From a virus: 27,562 bases of DNA. Where the stretch lies: positions 1-27,562 of the IMG/VR virus record IMGVR_UViG_3300032668_000117; one strand, 5' to 3'. Shown here one piece after another: positions 3,074 to 26,735 of this stretch. The notes under the pieces were generated by a model, which had not been told where the DNA came from, did no database searches, and saw only the letters and a program-made list of their open reading frames with translations. The translations under genes and the position numbers were made by a program. Every line of letters starts with the position of its first letter. Positions within the stretch are counted from its first letter, which is position 1.

Positions 3074-5692
3074 ATGCCCACCACAGTATTCTTTGACGGC
3101 AAACCAATAGACCGCGATGAAACGCTGCTAGAGATAGAGCGCGTTGAATGCGAGGAAAGCCTTTATCAGTTCTTAGTCTCAGCGTGGAAATATATTGATC
3201 CCGCACCGTTTACGGATGGCTGGGCAATTGAGGCGATCTGCGAACACCTGCAAGCGGTATGTGATGGGCAGATAAAACGGCTCATAATCAATCAACCGCC
3301 TCGCACATCGAAGAGCAGCATAACCAGCGTTGCCTTCCCGGCGTGGGTCTGGGCACAGCGGTTTAATTCTCCCACAAGTGGGCCTGGTGTACCGTTTCTG
3401 ACGGCTTCCTATGGCTATTCCCTCGCGCTGCGCGACAGCATGAAGTCGCGGCGTTTGATTGACAGCGCGTGGTATCAGCGCCTCTGGGGGAACAGATTTA
3501 GACTTACGAGTGACCAGAATACGAAAGGCCGGTTCGACAATGACAAGGGCGGCACTCGCCTTAGTACATCTGTGGACGGGTCCAATACCGGCGAAGGCGG
3601 CAACTGCTTTGTGGCTGGAACAATGGTTTCAACGCCGTCAGGGCCGCAGCCAATTGAGGCGCTAAAGGCTGGCGATCCGGTAATTGCCTTTGACCATTTA
3701 CGGGGTAAGGCGGTAATATCTGAGGTAGTGGCAACTCAGGTTTCTTCGTCTAATGACTTCTACGAAGTATGTACACTTTCGGGAAATAGATTCGTCTGTA
3801 CTGGCGCTCATCCGATATTCCAGCCGGGGCGAGGATATGTTGCCGCTTCTGAAATGGGGCGAGGAAACCGGGTTGTTGTCGAAATCTGGGCGTCTGATCC
3901 TTCTGCACCTGATTTGCGACAAGTGCGGGAAGCAAACGGACAAGCATCTGTACGAAGCCCGCAAGGCTCTCAAACAGGGCAGTCGGGACGCCTATTGTTC
4001 CAAGAAATGCTGTTCGGCCCATCACGCAATAAAACAGGCGAAGCCATGCGTGATTTGTGGAATGCCGCGAAAGCATCGGCACACCGAAACTTGTTCAACA
4101 GCGTGTCAGCAACAGGTAAGATGGGAAAAACGCAAAAAGCGGATATGCCCAAGATGCAGGGGGCGCTTCGCTGGCTGGACAGTTTATTGTTCCTCGGATT
4201 GTGCGGACGCCGATCACTCAGAGAGAATGCGGGGTTCGCAAAACTCGCGCTTCAGATTGATTGGCCGCTATTCAAATCAGTTCAAGGAAATGCGGTTAAT
4301 TGTATTAGAGCGGGATTCACACCGCTGTGCATCATGCCAAGCGCCAGACAAGAGAGTAACGCACGGGAAAAGAATGCGCGGGTTTCTTCAGGCGCATCAC
4401 ATAGACGAGAACTCGCGGAACAACGTCCCAGAGAATCTAATTTCCTTATGTCCGCGCTGCCACAAGAAGCATCATCATGGGGTATTGGCTATATCGCCTC
4501 AGTTACCCGCCTTAGCTGCGAGCCGCAGCGCGTCTATGACATCCAAGTTAAAGGATGCAGCAACTTCTTTGCTGATGGCGTTCTCGTCCACAACTGCGTG
4601 ATTATTGACGATCCTAACTCAGCACAGGAAGCGTTCAGCGAAGCCACAATCGAAAAAACAATATCGTGGTGGGACGGTGTGATGAGCACTCGTCTAAATG
4701 ATCCAAAGACTGGTGCTTTTGTTGTTGTTCAACAGCGCCTCGCGGAAGACGATCTAACAGGCCATATTCTGTCAAAAGATGTTGGAGAGTGGACCCACCT
4801 CTGCTTGCCAATGCGCTTCGAGCGTGACCGCTCGTTTGTATCCACCATCGGATGGCAAGACCCGCGCACCATTGAAGGAGAATTGCTTTGGCCGGAGCGG
4901 TTTGGCGAAGATGAAGTTAGCCTGCTTGAGAAACAGCTAGGGCCATTTTCGGCATGTGGCCAGCTACAACAGCGCCCTGAACCGGCTGGCGGCGGCGTCA
5001 TCAAGCGCGAATGGTGGAAGCTATGGGAGGAAGACGCTTTCCCACCCATGGACTTCATCGTGGCCAGTCTAGATACGGCTTACACCACAAAGACCGAAAA
5101 TGACTTCAGCGCCCTGACTGTGTGGGGCGTCTTCACTGGCGATACGGTTGCCCAGGCGACGCGCATCATTGGCCGCGATGGCAGGCCGACATATGACGAA
5201 CGCTCTTATTCCGATGGCTCGCCTAAGGTCATGCTTATGGGCGCATGGCAGGAACGGCTTGAACTGCATGATCTGGTTAAGAAGGTTGGCGACACATGCA
5301 AGAAGCTGAAGGTGGATAAGCTTATTATCGAGTCTAAAGCTGCTGGTCATAGTGTGGCGCAAGAAATCAGGCGGTTGTATAATAACGAGACGTTCGCGGT
5401 GTTTCTCTATGACCCGAAGGCGCAAGATAAGTTGGCGCGTCTATATAGCATCCAACATCTATTTGCAGAGGGAATGATTTATGCGCCAGACCGTGCGTGG
5501 GCTGACATGGTGATTACGCAGGTAGGCCAATTTCCAAAGGGTAAACGAGATGACTTGGTAGACACGGTAAGCCAAGCTCTTAGACATATGCGCGACCTTG
5601 GCCTGATGATACGCGGCCCAGAACGCATTGCAGAGATTGAGCAGATGAAGCAATACACGGGCTGTCCGCCGCAGCCGTTGTACCCAGCATAG
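3074..5692 (+). CDS. terL: Terminase large subunit precursor interrupted by an intein
   Basis: This is the ATPase-nuclease motor that packages DNA through the portal. The ORF is 872 codons; removing the intein (residues 178-507) leaves a 542-residue terminase, a normal length. Visible motifs are a Walker A-like NQPPRTSKSS (Lys80), the conserved NTGEGG-N segment, and Walker B CVIIDDP directly after the intein. An RNase H-type nuclease follows, with Asp667 in ASLDTAY, Glu in IIESKAAGHS, and Asp826/827/830 in RDDLVDT. The intein separates NTGEGGN from CVIIDDP, so splicing is required for an active ATPase. It starts with ATG directly after the upstream stop. The stretch of the precursor frame between about 3890 and 4490 carries no recognisable intein or terminase sequence and overlaps an HNH gene in another frame. 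Confidence 0.92.
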   Translation: MPTTVFFDGKPIDRDETLLEIERVECEESLYQFLVSAWKYIDPAPFTDGWAIEAICEHLQAVCDGQIKRLIINQPPRTSKSSITSVAFPAWVWAQRFNSPTSGPGVPFLTASYGYSLALRDSMKSRRLIDSAWYQRLWGNRFRLTSDQNTKGRFDNDKGGTRLSTSVDGSNTGEGGNCFVAGTMVSTPSGPQPIEALKAGDPVIAFDHLRGKAVISEVVATQVSSSNDFYEVCTLSGNRFVCTGAHPIFQPGRGYVAASEMGRGNRVVVEIWASDPSAPDLRQVREANGQASVRSPQGSQTGQSGRLLFQEMLFGPSRNKTGEAMRDLWNAAKASAHRNLFNSVSATGKMGKTQKADMPKMQGALRWLDSLLFLGLCGRRSLRENAGFAKLALQIDWPLFKSVQGNAVNCIRAGFTPLCIMPSARQESNAREKNARVSSGASHRRELAEQRPRESNFLMSALPQEASSWGIGYIASVTRLSCEPQRVYDIQVKGCSNFFADGVLVHNCVIIDDPNSAQEAFSEATIEKTISWWDGVMSTRLNDPKTGAFVVVQQRLAEDDLTGHILSKDVGEWTHLCLPMRFERDRSFVSTIGWQDPRTIEGELLWPERFGEDEVSLLEKQLGPFSACGQLQQRPEPAGGGVIKREWWKLWEEDAFPPMDFIVASLDTAYTTKTENDFSALTVWGVFTGDTVAQATRIIGRDGRPTYDERSYSDGSPKVMLMGAWQERLELHDLVKKVGDTCKKLKVDKLIIESKAAGHSVAQEIRRLYNNETFAVFLYDPKAQDKLARLYSIQHLFAEGMIYAPDRAWADMVITQVGQFPKGKRDDLVDTVSQALRHMRDLGLMIRGPERIAEIEQMKQYTGCPPQPLYPA
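3605..4594 (+). other. Intein in terminase large subunit (330 aa)
   Basis: Intein motifs are clear in the terminase frame. Block A begins at Cys178 (CFVAGTMVSTPSGPQPIEAL). Block B contains the TxxH motif in RFVCTGAHPIFQ. Block F reads RVYDIQVKGCSNFFADG, and block G ends VLVHN (His506, Asn507), followed by Cys508 as the +1 nucleophile. All residues for standard Cys1/Asn/Cys+1 splicing are therefore present. The Hint halves cover roughly 3605-3890 and 4490-4594. The roughly 200 codons between them are open in this frame but match nothing I know, because the DNA there encodes an HNH endonuclease in the next frame. The insertion is at the Walker B motif, a highly conserved site as expected for inteins. 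Confidence 0.92.
3837..4601 (+). CDS. HNH homing endonuclease encoded out of frame inside the intein
   Basis: Read one base further than the terminase frame, the intein DNA encodes a multi-zinc-finger HNH protein. It shows Cys pairs CDKC...YCSKKC, CVIC...CSTAC and CPRC...YCSSDC. An HNH core follows: HRCASCQ (Cys pair), LQAHHIDEN (catalytic His pair at 4395-4400), NVPENLISL (Asn) and CPRCHKKHH. These are the hallmarks of phage HNH homing nucleases. The frame opens after TAG 3726-3728. Candidate starts are ATG 3753 and ATG 3837; I prefer 3837 because GGGGCGAGG lies just upstream, and 3753 would overlap Hint block B more deeply. Beyond about 4485 the frame only shadows the intein C-terminus before its stop at 4599. 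Whether it is translated independently is inference. Confidence 0.8.
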   Translation: MLPLLKWGEETGLLSKSGRLILLHLICDKCGKQTDKHLYEARKALKQGSRDAYCSKKCCSAHHAIKQAKPCVICGMPRKHRHTETCSTACQQQVRWEKRKKRICPRCRGRFAGWTVYCSSDCADADHSERMRGSQNSRFRLIGRYSNQFKEMRLIVLERDSHRCASCQAPDKRVTHGKRMRGFLQAHHIDENSRNNVPENLISLCPRCHKKHHHGVLAISPQLPALAASRSASMTSKLKDAATSLLMAFSSTTA

Positions 5693-11789: not shown

Positions 11790-12182
11790 ATGCCTGCCAT
11801 GCAGATGGTTCATGAAGCAGACCCTAAAGACGTAAAGCTTAAAGAACTCGGAAGCATCAAAGACATCGAGATTTTCAACAACCAGGTTCTTGTTGCCGTC
11901 TACCTTCGCCCCGAAAAGACCAAGGGCGGCATTTTGCTCCCCGATCAAAACCGCGCTGAAGACCAGTATCAGTCGAAAATTGGCCTTGTCGTTAAGCTGG
12001 GGCCTGACGCATTTGTGGATTCCAGTGGCGCTTGGTTCAAGGATATGGACATTGCGCTGCATGATTGGGTCATTTTCCGGCCATCCGATGGCTGGAGCAT
12101 CACAGTGAATGGCGTTTTGTGCCGTATCCTGGAAGACACTGCTGTTCGCGGTCGCGTTCAGAGCGTTGACTCAATTTGGTGA
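11790..12182 (+). CDS. Phage GroES-like co-chaperonin
   Basis: The fold signature is clear: NQVLVAVYLRPEKTKGGIL at residues 31-49 corresponds to the GroES 'RV.V......T.GGI.LP' start of the beta-barrel and mobile loop. It is followed by KIGLVVKLGPDAFVD, then HDWVIFRPSDGWSITVNG and CRILEDTAVRGRV. Phage co-chaperonins such as T4 gp31 replace or supplement host GroES so that GroEL can fold the major capsid protein; this one lies upstream of the scaffold and capsid genes. The length, 130 residues, is longer than host GroES (about 97) and in the range of phage versions. The ATG start is 17 nt after the previous gene, with GGAGAAG upstream. Confidence 0.82.
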   Translation: MPAMQMVHEADPKDVKLKELGSIKDIEIFNNQVLVAVYLRPEKTKGGILLPDQNRAEDQYQSKIGLVVKLGPDAFVDSSGAWFKDMDIALHDWVIFRPSDGWSITVNGVLCRILEDTAVRGRVQSVDSIW

Positions 12183-12186
12183 CAAA

Positions 12187-12792
12187 GTGTTTAGAATTTG
12201 TAAATCTTGTTCAATAGAGCAGCCAATAACCAGTTTCGGAAAATCCAAAACTGGCAAGTATGGTGTTAGGGCTGTATGCAAAGGTTGTGTTTGCGCGGCT
12301 GCGCGAGAAAAGTACCGTAAAGACCCATTGAAGACCAATGAGAGGGTGCGAACCTTTTTAAGGAAAGACAGGGCCGCCAACCCCAAAAGGTACAAGGAAT
12401 ATTTCTTGAAAAGAAACATTCCAAATACTTTGAAAGCAAACAGAGAGTGGTACGCGCGAAATGTTGATGAACAGCGCATCAGAGCATCGAAATGGTATAA
12501 AAATAATACCGCTCGTTCGTTAGCTTTATCCGCAAGGCGGCGCGCGGCAGAAATAAATGCTACCCCGTCTTGGTTAAACCAAATACAGTTAAACCAGATT
12601 GAGGAAATGTATGACGTTGCCGCCGCTTGTGATACGCAGATAGGCGTAAAGCACCATGTTGATCATATTTTCCCACTACAAGGGAAAAACTTTTGTGGTC
12701 TTCATGTGCCGTGGAATCTGCAAGTTATTCCAGCCACTGAAAACATAGCAAAGCATAACAAACCACCGCAAGAATACGCGCATCTCTTTTAG
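12187..12792 (+). CDS. Free-standing HNH homing endonuclease (paralogue of 20634)
   Basis: The N-terminal zinc finger has Cys5/Cys8 and Cys31/Cys34 (CKSC...CKGC). A long Arg/Lys-rich helical linker follows. The C-terminal nuclease reads WLNQIQLNQIEEMYDVA, then KHHVDHIFPLQGK, HVPWNLQVIPATEN and KHNK, the DH..PL..... WNLQ form of the HNH/EndoVII superfamily. GTG 12187 is the start, four bases after the GroES-like stop; longer readings run into that gene. It is A-rich compared with its neighbours, consistent with transfer. It sits exactly between two structural genes without altering them. Confidence 0.82.
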   Translation: MFRICKSCSIEQPITSFGKSKTGKYGVRAVCKGCVCAAAREKYRKDPLKTNERVRTFLRKDRAANPKRYKEYFLKRNIPNTLKANREWYARNVDEQRIRASKWYKNNTARSLALSARRRAAEINATPSWLNQIQLNQIEEMYDVAAACDTQIGVKHHVDHIFPLQGKNFCGLHVPWNLQVIPATENIAKHNKPPQEYAHLF

Positions 12793-15216: not shown

Positions 15217-16131
15217 ATGGCTGTTAATCTTTCTGCGATTAAAGACCTTCTGCTCCCCGGCCTTCGCGGGGTAGAAGGCAAGTACGAGATGATCCCGTCT
15301 CAGTACGACAAGATTTTTACCAAGCATAATTCCAAGTTGGCTTTGGAACGTACCGCTGAAATGCGGTATCTGGGCCTTGCCCAGCTTAAGACGGAAGGTG
15401 GCCAGACCTCCTTCGATAACAACGCTGGCGAGCGCTATATCTACAACCAGGAACACAACGAAATTGCTCTTGGTTACGCGATTACTCGCAAAGCGATTGA
15501 CGATAACCTGTACAAGACCCAGTTTCACCCCTCCAATCTGGGCCTCATTGAGTCGTTCCAGCAGACCAAAGAAATCTACGGCTCGAACATTCTCAATACC
15601 GCGACGACCTATAATGCCGCGATTGGCGCTGATGGTGTTGCTCTTTGTTCCACCGCACATCCGATTGACGGCGGAACGGTTGCCAACACGCCGACCGTGC
15701 AGGCTGATCTGAACGAAGCCACGCTGTTGAACGGTATGATTTCTATCCGTACCAACTTCAAGGATCAGGCTGGCCTGAAGGTTTTCGCCCGTGGCCGGAA
15801 ACTGATTGTTCCTCCGCAGCTTGAGCCTATTGCGATCCGTCTGACCAAGACGGAATTGCGCCCTGGCACTGCGGACAATGATGTGAATGCGATCATCTCG
15901 ACCGCTGGTGGTCTGCCGGAAGGCTATATGGTCAACGATTTCTTGACCTCTGCCTACGCGTGGTTCCTGCTAACCAATATCGACGGCCTGTCGTATATGG
16001 AACGTATCGCTTTCGAAACTGACATGCAGGTGGACTTCGTTACCGACAACCTGCTGGTGAAAGGATATGAGCGCTACAGTTTCTCGTACTACAACTGGCG
16101 CGCCCTTTATGGAAGCTTCCCTACTTCATGA
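15217..16131 (+). CDS. Major capsid protein
   Basis: The 304-residue protein has the features of an HK97-fold major head subunit: an N-terminal helix (LSAIKDLLLPGLRGVEGKY), EGGQTSFDNNAGERYIY in the extended-loop region, and LFAD-like contact segments. It also has the frequently seen CSTAHPIDGGTVANTP followed by LNEATLLNGMISIRTNF and ARGRKLIVPPQLEPIA. The block AHP..GGT..NTP...ADLNEA.L is common to Mu gpT-like capsid proteins. AGGAACAGG precedes the ATG. Its stop overlaps an endonuclease start (ATGA). Confidence 0.85.
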   Translation: MAVNLSAIKDLLLPGLRGVEGKYEMIPSQYDKIFTKHNSKLALERTAEMRYLGLAQLKTEGGQTSFDNNAGERYIYNQEHNEIALGYAITRKAIDDNLYKTQFHPSNLGLIESFQQTKEIYGSNILNTATTYNAAIGADGVALCSTAHPIDGGTVANTPTVQADLNEATLLNGMISIRTNFKDQAGLKVFARGRKLIVPPQLEPIAIRLTKTELRPGTADNDVNAIISTAGGLPEGYMVNDFLTSAYAWFLLTNIDGLSYMERIAFETDMQVDFVTDNLLVKGYERYSFSYYNWRALYGSFPTS

Positions 16132-16616
16132 TTGATAAGGCCAAAGCCGCTGCTAGAGCCGCTCGTTGGCGCGCTAAGAATCCTGATAAAGTCAGGATTA
16201 TTCAGCGTCGAGCCAGGGAGAAAGCATTGCTCAATCCGGATAAGGCTGCGAAAATTCGTGAGTTCCAGAGTGGCTATCGTGAAAAGAACCGCGAATATCT
16301 TTCTGGCAAGGAACGTGAGCGTCGCTTTGGGATAAGCCTTGCTGATTATTCCGTGTTGGTTGCTGCACAGGACAACAAGTGCGCCATCTGTTTTCAGCCT
16401 GAAACTGAAATGCGTAATGGTAAGGTCAAGGCTCTTGCGGTCGATCACGACCATGAAACTGGCGAAAATCGTGGCCTGCTCTGCGTTGCCTGCAATACGG
16501 GAATTGGTAAGCTGAAAGAGGATCGTAATATTATGATTTCAGCCATCAAATACCTTGATAAATACTCCGAAGCTCGCCCCAATGTGGTGCCTTTGGTCAG
16601 CAAGGGGAATAAATAG
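16128..16616 (+). CDS. Endonuclease VII-like HNH endonuclease
   Basis: Cys85/Cys88 (KCAIC), the catalytic-type AVDHDHETG (Asp106-His109), NRGLLCVACNTGIG (Cys119, Cys122, Asn123) and the following KLKEDR match the recombination endonuclease VII family (T4 gp49-like, His-Me finger). Such genes also act as free-standing homing endonucleases. The N-terminal 70 residues are a basic Arg/Lys/Ala-rich helical region. The ATG overlaps the capsid stop (ATGA), and the next structural gene begins right after its stop. The protein could process branched DNA before packaging or be a mobile gene; its placement between structural genes favours the latter. Confidence 0.85.
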   Translation: MIDKAKAAARAARWRAKNPDKVRIIQRRAREKALLNPDKAAKIREFQSGYREKNREYLSGKERERRFGISLADYSVLVAAQDNKCAICFQPETEMRNGKVKALAVDHDHETGENRGLLCVACNTGIGKLKEDRNIMISAIKYLDKYSEARPNVVPLVSKGNK

Positions 16617-18563: not shown

Positions 18564-19253
18564 ATGACGACTAGCGGAACATATAACTACAATCCGGGAT
18601 TGGGAGAGGCGACAATATACGCCTTCAATCTGTGTGGCATCCGTGGCACGGCTATTCTCCAAGAACACATGGAATCGGCCCGCATGGCAGCAAATATGCT
18701 GCTGGGTCGCTGGAGTAGCCAGGGGGTAAATCTTTGGGCCGTCGATCTTCAGACAATTAATTTGGTTCAGGGCACTTCAACATATTCTGTCCCAGCTAAT
18801 ACGATTGTGATGCTGGATGCCTATGTTACGACAACAAACGGCGGCGTCCCGATCAATCGACTTATTTTGCCTATCAGCCGCACAGAGTATGCCAGCTACC
18901 CAAATCCGCAGCAGCAAGGCTTCCCGACTACCTATTGGATGGATCGCCTTCTAGCGCCTTCTGTGACACTCTGGCCGGTACCTGACGGCAATGAGGTATC
19001 ATTTAGTTACTACAGAGTCCGGCAGGTACAGGATTCCGCCTTTACGTCCGGTCAACAGGTGGAGATTCCATATTATTTTCTGGAGGCATTCGCGTATGGT
19101 CTAGCCCAGCGTTTAGCTATGATCTGGGCGTCGGACAAGGTTGCCATGCTGAAGCCGTTAGCGGATGAGGCATATGCTATTGCGGCGGCTCAGAACATCG
19201 AGACCGCCGCAACTTACATTAGCCCCATGATTTCGTCATACTTCCGACCATGA
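18564..19253 (+). CDS. Head-tail connector / tail accessory protein (P22 gp4-like)
   Basis: The 229-residue protein begins with a helical domain (ILQEHMESARMAANMLLGRW, SSQGVNLWAVDL), followed by strands (TYSVPANTIVMLDAYV, NRLILPISRTEYASYPN). It then has PTTYWMDRLLAPSVTLWPVPDG and a C-terminal helical part. This arrangement, especially 'LN.....W...G..LW' and 'P..YWVDR...P.L.LWP.P', is seen in podoviral adaptor proteins that extend the portal and seal the packaged DNA. The assignment to the gp4-like group is from motif memory. GGAGTGAGAG precedes the ATG. The stop overlaps an endonuclease gene (ATGA). Confidence 0.7.
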   Translation: MTTSGTYNYNPGLGEATIYAFNLCGIRGTAILQEHMESARMAANMLLGRWSSQGVNLWAVDLQTINLVQGTSTYSVPANTIVMLDAYVTTTNGGVPINRLILPISRTEYASYPNPQQQGFPTTYWMDRLLAPSVTLWPVPDGNEVSFSYYRVRQVQDSAFTSGQQVEIPYYFLEAFAYGLAQRLAMIWASDKVAMLKPLADEAYAIAAAQNIETAATYISPMISSYFRP

Positions 19254-19891
19254 ATAGTGAAAACGTTTTCTATATCTACGAACACTGGCGTCCTGATAAG
19301 GGCGTTTGTTTCTATGTTGGAAAGGGAAAAGACAAACGCGCTTGGGACATGAAAAACATGCGCAATTGCCATCATAAGGCTGTCGTATCAAAACTTACAG
19401 CCATGGGATTTAGTGTAGATGTCCGCATAATCGTATCTGGCCTATCCTCAACGGCGGCACTTGCAGTCGAAATAGATCGCATTGCGACGTACAGCAGGGA
19501 AACCCTTACAAATATGACGCGCGGCGGCGATGGGCTAGTCGATCCAAGCCCTGCCGTTAGAAAGCGCATGTCTGAATCTCAGAAGACAAGATTTGCACGG
19601 CCTGAAGAAAGAGAGAAAATGAGCGCCAGGGTTACGGGACGAGTAACATCTGATGAGACTAAAAAGAAACTATCAATAACCAGCAGCGGTCGTAAGTATT
19701 CCAAAGAAACTATCAAAAAGATGAAGGTGGCCGCAAAAATACGTGGTATTTCGGCAGCGACTAGAGAAGCGCAGGTTAAGGCAATTACAGGTAAAAAGCG
19801 CGCGCCGTTCAAGGAATCTACCATTATAAAAATGCGCGCCGCTGCTAAAGTCAGAGAAGAAAAAAAGCGCCTAGCTCGCGAGGTCTCCTGA
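19250..19891 (+). CDS. GIY-YIG homing endonuclease with NUMOD3 repeats
   Basis: FYIYEHWRPDKGVCFYVGKG (residues 7-26) is the GIY-YIG motif in its common phage variant (YIYEH...FYVGKG). Glu74 in AVEIDRIATY is the conserved catalytic Glu, and LTNMTRGGDG follows at 86-95. The C-terminal half has several NUMOD3-type DNA-binding repeats (S.ETKKKLS, YSKETIKKMK, FKESTIIKMRAAAK). The ATG overlaps the upstream stop and the next structural gene begins two bases after its own stop. It is closely similar to the gene at 25959 over the catalytic domain. Mobile-gene status is inferred from family and position. Confidence 0.88.
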   Translation: MNSENVFYIYEHWRPDKGVCFYVGKGKDKRAWDMKNMRNCHHKAVVSKLTAMGFSVDVRIIVSGLSSTAALAVEIDRIATYSRETLTNMTRGGDGLVDPSPAVRKRMSESQKTRFARPEEREKMSARVTGRVTSDETKKKLSITSSGRKYSKETIKKMKVAAKIRGISAATREAQVKAITGKKRAPFKESTIIKMRAAAKVREEKKRLAREVS

Positions 19892-20633: not shown

Positions 20634-21302
20634 ATGCAAGCATGTTCTAAATGCCATGTTGAAAAGCCGCTGGAGGATTTTTACCAGCGTAAAAATGGTG
20701 CGTACAGAAAGGATTGCAAATCCTGCTTTACTCAAAAGACTAAAGAGTGGAAAGAAAAAAACGCGGACAAAATGCGTGAATACTGGCGTCTTTATTGCTT
20801 AGAGGCATACCGTAAGAATCCTGAAAAGGGCAAAGAAAAGGCTCGTCGTTATCGCGCGGCAAACCCAGATCGAGTTAAAATTACGTGGGCTGACAACAAT
20901 AAAAAAAGATGGGCAAACATTACGCCGGAAAAAAAAGAACAAGAAAAGAAAAGGCTACGTATATTTTACGAGAAAAATAGAGAGAAACAGTTAGCCAGAA
21001 CTAGCGCAGCAAAAAAGCGCAATAGGGGTCATTATACTGCTTACCAAAACGCCAGACGGGCACTCCAATTGTCTGCTTCTCCGCCATGGCTTTCTGCAAT
21101 TCAGCTAAACCAAATCGCTGAAATGTATGATGTTGCCGTAGCGTGCAACATGCAGACTGGAATTAAACATCACGTAGATCACATTGTTCCTTTGCGCGGA
21201 AAGGCAGTGCGTGGACTTCATGTTCCATGGAATTTACAAGTAATTCCTGCGATTCAAAATCACCGAAAACACAATAAGCTTGTCGAAGAGTATTTACGTT
21301 GA
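20634..21302 (+). CDS. Free-standing HNH homing endonuclease (paralogue of 12187)
   Basis: Cys4/Cys7 and Cys28/Cys31 form the N-terminal zinc finger (CSKC...CKSC). A long Lys/Arg/Glu-rich helix follows. The C-terminal nuclease has WLSAIQLNQIAEMYDVA, KHHVDHIVPLRGK, HVPWNLQVIPAIQN and KHNK, nearly the same as the gene at 12187. The ATG follows the preceding stop by six bases, and its stop overlaps the next TTG start. It is visibly A-rich in the linker region. Probably mobile. Confidence 0.83.
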   Translation: MQACSKCHVEKPLEDFYQRKNGAYRKDCKSCFTQKTKEWKEKNADKMREYWRLYCLEAYRKNPEKGKEKARRYRAANPDRVKITWADNNKKRWANITPEKKEQEKKRLRIFYEKNREKQLARTSAAKKRNRGHYTAYQNARRALQLSASPPWLSAIQLNQIAEMYDVAVACNMQTGIKHHVDHIVPLRGKAVRGLHVPWNLQVIPAIQNHRKHNKLVEEYLR

Positions 21303-25958: not shown

Positions 25959-26735
25959 TTGAACGATTACCGTTTTTATGTCTACGAGCATTGGCGTCCT
26001 GACCGGGACGAGTGCTTTTACGTGGGGAAAGGAAAGGGCGGTAGGGCTCACGATATGCATCGTGGCCGTAATCGGTTTCATAAATTTATTCAGGCAAAGC
26101 TATCCCGTATTGGTATGGCAGTAGATGTTCGCCTAATTGCTATGTGCCTAACTGAAAACGATGCCTTTGCCTTGGAGCGTGAGCGTATTTCATTTTGGCG
26201 TGCTGATGGCGTTGACTTGGCCAACATTACTGATGGTGGTGACGGCCCAAGCGGAAGAAAGCACACCGAAGAGTGGAAGTTGGCCAATAGCGAGAGAATG
26301 AAAGGGCGCAAACCTTCTGCTGAAACACGGGCGAAAATGTCTGCTGCCGCTATTGGAAATACTAAGGGGCTTGGAAAGAAAAGACCGGAAGAAGCATCGC
26401 GCATAACTGCTGAAAAAAATCGCGGTAAAAAGCGCAGTGCTGAAGTAAGGCTGCATTTAAGTGAAATAAGAAAAGTAAACCCTACGTTTAAAGGGCGTCA
26501 TCATACTGCTGAATCAATTGCTAAGATAAAAGCTCCGCAAATTGGTCGGCCAAAGTCAGAAGAGACTAAGGCTAAGATGCGAAAGCCCAAGAGCGAAGAA
26601 CATAAGCGTAAGATTGCCGCTATTCGCCTTGGAAAGAAACATACTCCGGAAACTCTTGCGAAACTTTCGGACGCGGTAAAACGCGGATGGGAAAATCGCA
26701 GGCGCAAAGCCCAGCTAAAAATGATGGATCAATAA
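25959..26735 (+). CDS. GIY-YIG homing endonuclease with NUMOD3 repeats (paralogue of 19250)
   Basis: The GIY-YIG motif is FYVYEHWRPDRDECFYVGKG, catalytic Glu73 lies in ALERERISFW, and NITDGGDGPSG follows. The rest is a series of NUMOD3-like repeats: KPSAETRAKMSAA, RSAEVRLHLSEIR, HTAESIAKIKA, KSEETKAKMRK and HTPETLAKLSDAV. The catalytic region is very similar to the gene at 19250 but the repeat array is longer. I start at TTG 25959, with GGGGTTTGAG immediately before it. It lies between the acetyltransferase and the internal virion protein gene. Confidence 0.88.
   Translation: MNDYRFYVYEHWRPDRDECFYVGKGKGGRAHDMHRGRNRFHKFIQAKLSRIGMAVDVRLIAMCLTENDAFALERERISFWRADGVDLANITDGGDGPSGRKHTEEWKLANSERMKGRKPSAETRAKMSAAAIGNTKGLGKKRPEEASRITAEKNRGKKRSAEVRLHLSEIRKVNPTFKGRHHTAESIAKIKAPQIGRPKSEETKAKMRKPKSEEHKRKIAAIRLGKKHTPETLAKLSDAVKRGWENRRRKAQLKMMDQ

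Follow-up and report, generated by a model that had tools for sequence, protein, structure and literature searches.

The endonuclease of a textbook intein is a domain of the spliced polypeptide. Fractured genes, reportedly described by Dassa et al. in 2009, are said to combine split inteins with a free endonuclease ORF, one type of which is Vsr/EDxHD-like. Additionally, a 2025 preprint by Gosselin, Arsenault and Gogarten, which is cited for overlapping frames, is said to survey actinobacteriophage inteins in PhagesDB and to speak of a "non-canonical architecture"; it may describe related actinophage cases, Gordonia phage Clown (see below) being expected in PhagesDB. The closest published precedents are the non-splicing ShiLan and Pacc40 insertions (PMC11855218, Genes 2025). 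The ShiLan domain and the insertion of Pacc40 gp60 are out-of-frame HNHs in phage methylases, with splicing motifs absent by the authors' analysis. An overlap is also annotated in StellaBean, where the HNH gene gp98 lies within the methylase gene gp97. A text search of a survey of mycobacteriophage TerL inteins (PMC5050341) returned neither "out of frame" nor "overlap".

Here we analyze a terL gene in an IMG/VR virus record of 27,562 nt (27.6 kb), the whole of which is referred to as the window. We consider it very likely that this gene contains a mobile intein with split coding, which would splice in the terL frame and carry a separate HNH homing endonuclease in the +1 frame. Like the ShiLan and Pacc40 insertions, this intein interrupts a phage gene without bringing in stops, hides an HNH ORF out of frame and is sporadically distributed, and the ShiLan-type HNH, offset by +2, is a remote homologue of the window nuclease. 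Unlike ShiLan, which has a methylase host, an HNH of 195 aa and, by the authors' analysis, no Hint domain, the window insertion is a full intein with a complete Hint domain in a TerL host, and it belongs to a far larger and older family. The initial annotation knew of no well-described precedent; that statement needs correction, since out-of-frame HNH insertions without splicing motifs have been published. With canonical inteins (PI-SceI type; also L065 and L098 among our loci) the window intein shares the Hint fold, Cys1, TxxH, HN/C and a conserved ATPase motif as its site, but their nuclease normally shares the reading frame of Hint and is excised as part of one polypeptide with it, whereas the window nuclease is in another frame. 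Like the mycobacteriophage TerL inteins (PMC5050341), it is found in the TerL ATPase domain, near the Walker motifs. As in the split inteins of fractured genes, the endonuclease is a separate ORF at the center of the intein; those host genes are in two pieces, while the host here is one continuous ORF.

Layout of the terL intein and the +1 ORF

The terL ORF (3074–5692, 872 codons) is uninterrupted through an intein of 330 aa (3605–4594); in the translation, its first residue is Cys178 (nt 3605) and its last Asn507 (nt 4594), with Cys+1 and the VIIDDP of Walker B directly after. A host gene broken into two ORFs, as in a fractured gene, was not found at this locus. The motifs read in the terL frame are Cys1 at 3605 (CFVAG), TGAH, VYDIQV and VLVHN/C; the features of a class 1 Hint-type intein (Cys1, block B TxxH, C-terminal HN and Cys+1) are all present and are kept across the family. 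Pfam Intein_splicing matches this frame with an E-value of 4e-9. In the +1 frame relative to terL, an ORF of 282 aa (3753–4601) encodes several CxxC zinc sites plus an HNH domain, with Pfam HNH (PF01844) matching residues 192–242 at an E-value of 6e-6, above Pfam's cut-off; the third frame of this region contains many stops. The ORFs and Pfam matches agree with the initial annotation, which had placed the Hint motifs in the terL frame and the HNH in the +1 frame. The features are as follows.

3074–3604, + strand: TerL N-extein (terL ORF; alignment to intein-less TerLs as far as TGEGG[N/S])
3605–3874, + strand: Hint-N half in the terL frame, with Cys1 in block A and TGAH in block B (Pfam; AlphaFold2 pLDDT 85–93; Foldseek)
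3753–3874, + strand: double-coding stretch, Hint-N plus nuclease N-terminal helices (host third-position variability; nuclease model)
3753–4601, + strand: HNH nuclease ORF in the +1 frame, running from an ATG to a TGA that spans the junction with the C-extein
3875–4471, + strand: terL-frame middle, stop-free and predicted to be disordered filler, over the zinc-finger and HNH domains (AlphaFold2, identity, stop counts)
4326–4478, + strand: HNH domain in the +1 frame, HRCASC...AHHID...NN..PENL..CPRCHKKHHH (Pfam PF01844)
4472–4594, + strand: Hint-C half (VYDIQV, VLVHN), whose DNA also codes for the nuclease C-terminal helices (NCBIfam intein_Cterm; AlphaFold2; third-position variability)
4595–5692, + strand: TerL C-extein, from Cys+1 just before Walker B, C-V-I-I-D-D-P (ORF; alignment to intein-less homologues)

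Both products were modeled with AlphaFold2. Using 13 aligned relatives, the +1 protein was predicted with a mean pLDDT of 87 and confident helices at both double-coded ends. The model of the terL-frame intein has a confident Hint-N (residues 1–90, pLDDT 85–93) and Hint-C (290–331) around a disordered middle (pLDDT ∼30–55). By Foldseek, this model matches solved mini-inteins (TM 0.86, on target, for the Mtu RecA mini-intein), while the nuclease model weakly matches HNH domains of McrA-type enzymes (best E-value 5e-3). By computation, then, the terL frame encodes an intein of the Hint fold and the +1 frame a zinc-finger HNH protein that is confidently predicted to fold.

Family and probable mobility of the element

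With the HNH protein as query, a relative of 59% identity was found that has the same two-frame layout, and independent relatives at 59–65% identity have the same arrangement. Matches by tblastn include Gordonia phage Clown and Synechococcus phage S-EIVl, both of which are complete genomes of cultured phages with the same +1 layout; their loci are annotated as terminase only, the nuclease being absent from the published gene calls. Profile scans extended the family, and clustering at 80% nuclease amino acid identity gave 59 non-redundant inteins. The initial annotation had suggested looking for homologous inteins with the same offset, and these were found: the nuclease is at +1 in 59/59, so that the canonical arrangement, an endonuclease in the Hint frame, is absent from all 59 clusters. 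The Cys, His and Asn columns of the nuclease are invariant in the family alignment. In nearly all cases the insertion point is Walker B of TerL; the site of L076 is three codons and those of L059 and L077 one codon from that of the window, and a few are elsewhere (for example L088). An HNH tree, inspected to see whether the overlap arose once, was too weakly resolved, with 41 of its 74 forks open. One relative, L081, is on a contig labeled Fictibacillus arsenicus with 65% GC; the GC content of Fictibacillus is presumably far below this value, and the host label is doubtful (possible contamination).

A large family with the endonuclease in another frame changes intein annotation and shows how a homing gene can occupy a splicing element without being fused to it. 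It is also a clear case of long same-strand double coding, shared by dozens of phages that are distantly related to one another, and the uncoupling of homing from splicing becomes testable in those that have been cultured.

Presence at the insertion site is sporadic, as for homing endonucleases, with empty, mini and full alleles. Intein-less TerLs at ∼70% identity (L005–L028) are empty at the same codon; among empty homologues Cys+1 is replaced by I, V, L or F, and by I or V in those that are ∼70% identical. Occupied and empty alleles are interspersed on the TerL tree, with at least four changes, and mini-inteins of 135–167 aa occur at the same TerL site. The L196 intein lacks 510 bp of the nuclease, the loss being in frame with terL, and its exteins are identical in protein sequence to those of L076. 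Judged by its sequence, L196 is a natural HEG-deletion allele, and because the deletion keeps the terL frame, the nuclease appears to be dispensable while the host frame is not. Comparison of L076 (2653–3618) with L196 (1896–2351) also shows Hint-N to be several percent diverged in DNA, and there are hints that the intein has recombined internally.

The empty sites and the mini-intein with a deleted HNH fit homing by a separately translated nuclease, and the hidden nuclease probably spreads the intein. In the proposed mechanism, Hint-N and Hint-C would fold together in the terL-frame precursor, joined by a disordered stop-free linker, and would splice out to leave an intact TerL. The same mRNA would be read from an internal ATG at 3753 in the +1 frame, yielding a separate zinc-finger HNH homing endonuclease. 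At the codons for Walker B, this enzyme would cut those terL alleles that lack the intein; the break would be repaired by recombination, with the entire element being copied together with the Cys+1 codon. HNH identity correlates with TerL identity (r 0.80). Much of the spread may therefore be by vertical descent, and such descent over long periods is likely as well; a search for recent horizontal transfer, as an excess of HNH over TerL identity, gave no clear recent outlier. Such long vertical persistence would also suit a nuclease recruited for a phage function, packaging or the exclusion of rivals, with homing lost, and HNH proteins are known terminase partners (as cited in PMC11855218). Nevertheless, we regard recruitment as unlikely, since HNH-less mini-inteins at the same site and intein-less TerLs, both of them common, indicate that the nuclease is dispensable, and since the nuclease is located within a splicing element.

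Selection on two frames and the nuclease start

In the +1 geometry, only a nuclease codon with T as its last base, followed by a codon starting AA, AG or GA, creates a host-frame stop. Over the nuclease core, the 59 clusters contain no host-frame stops as compared to 534.6 expected from synonymous shuffles, clusters which share ancestry and are not 59 independent trials, with a divergence well beyond the memory of single synonymous sites. By the same shuffles, the third frame, which is used by no gene, has 559 stops (511.4 expected). At codon ends where T would create a host stop, T is found in 0 of 1204 cases across the clusters, while 52% of the other codons end in T. The window alone behaves similarly: the terL frame has no stops over the HNH core where 7.5 are expected (P<5e-5, synonymous shuffling), the third frame has nine (7.7 expected), and T is found at 0/18 stop-making codon ends versus 38/70 elsewhere (P 8e-6).

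Variability in the core is 0.37, 0.32 and 0.59 at the three nuclease codon positions, the periodicity of the nuclease frame, and identity over the core is 30% in the host frame versus 54% in the nuclease frame. The rate at nuclease third positions in the core equals that at extein third positions (0.58–0.60). Thus, the host frame appears unconstrained there, apart from the avoidance of stops. The ends of the nuclease gene are different: host third-position variability within the Hint domain drops from 0.63 to 0.29 after ATG 3753 (Mann-Whitney P 7e-9), and in Hint-C it is 0.35 as compared to 0.58 in the C-extein (P 2.6e-5). The low values in Hint-N after 3753 and in Hint-C indicate that ∼120 nt at each end are doubly constrained; both ends of the nuclease gene are truly double-coding. 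Sequence comparison therefore supports a double use of this DNA, one frame being kept free of stops for the intein while the other preserves an HNH nuclease, as the initial annotation had proposed from the window alone; relatives at 59–65% identity show the same.

For the internal start, ATG 3837 and ATG 3753 had both been put forward. The best breakpoints for the onset of host third-position constraint fall at 3752–3776, and in the 12-member clade around the window the start codon is at intein +148 nt in ten members (one counted after correction for a truncated contig end) and at +157 in the other two. The data favor ATG 3753, inside Hint block B, as the nuclease start; the Shine-Dalgarno signal before it is weak and not above background. 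ATG 3837, and likewise TTG 3873, was rejected: SD-like GAGG/GGAG sequences are present, but constraint begins upstream, at ∼3753.

Weak SD signals and a constant +1 offset would also be expected if ribosomes shifted by +1 out of the terL frame, producing a TerL-N/Hint-N/HNH fusion and no separate protein, and a +1 shift would lead into the nuclease frame, a −1 shift into the third frame with its many stops. A fusion, however, needs neither the onset of host synonymous constraint near ATG 3753 nor a positionally conserved start, and the DUF559 and HNH_3 versions described below have their own ORFs, two of them at a +2 offset. We therefore judge frameshifting to be quite improbable, and translation of the nuclease from its own internal start remains the preferred reading. 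That the insert is a group I or II intron removed from RNA, with the nuclease as its ORF, is very improbable: intron HEGs are often separate ORFs, but no catalytic RNA core was found in the window (no Rfam match), and the open terL frame encodes a complete Hint domain; in an intron, avoiding stops would be pointless. Finally, although this is a metagenomic contig and in-frame HNH inteins occur elsewhere (L098), neither assembly or sequencing frameshifts nor two recent frameshifts within a conventional in-frame HNH intein, both named at the outset as possible refutations, has any appreciable probability, as they are refuted by a second IMG/VR contig from another sample that is 100% identical over 7,799 nt, by the complete genomes of two cultured phages, by the same offset in 59/59 non-redundant homologues and by the avoidance of stops.

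Other intein nucleases and putative mobile genes

Out-of-frame nucleases of other types were also identified. In L187 (4001–5221), L175 (4001–4951) and L206 (656–1885), the DEAH box of a phage SNF2-helicase/methylase gene is the site of an intein; its +1 ORF encodes zinc fingers together with a nuclease of the DUF559 type (Vsr-like PDDEXK), and the host frame has no stops. Additionally, HNH_3 ORFs at the +2 offset were identified in two TerL inteins that lie close to the C-terminal nuclease region, the second intein of L154 (5990–6949) and an intein of L102 (1246–2085); over these ORFs there are no host stops (P 0.017 and 0.005, respectively). The TerL of L154 thus combines two types of out-of-frame nuclease, one per intein. 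In L065 (2182–5847), a TerL of the window family carries as its second intein a canonical one, of 345 aa, at the P-loop with an in-frame LAGLIDADG nuclease, and the HNH intein of L098 has its nuclease in frame; thus, both kinds coexist. More than one origin is probable for the out-of-frame kind. We think it likely that out-of-frame endonucleases form a general, repeatedly evolved class of phage inteins, with Hint and nuclease in different frames that are partly truly double-coding and would be separately expressed, comprising at least three types (zinc-finger HNH, DUF559/Vsr-like and HNH_3), two offsets, and both TerL and helicase-methylase hosts.

The window contains three further putative free-standing mobile endonuclease genes (16128–16616, 19250–19891 and 25959–26735), one of the endonuclease VII type and two with NUMOD3 motifs that are GIY-YIG-like by eye. 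Lastly, paralogous ORFs at 12109–12792 and 20634–21302 resemble zinc-finger HNH proteins and have no Pfam match; the former overlaps the end of the ORF at 11790–12182 in another frame.
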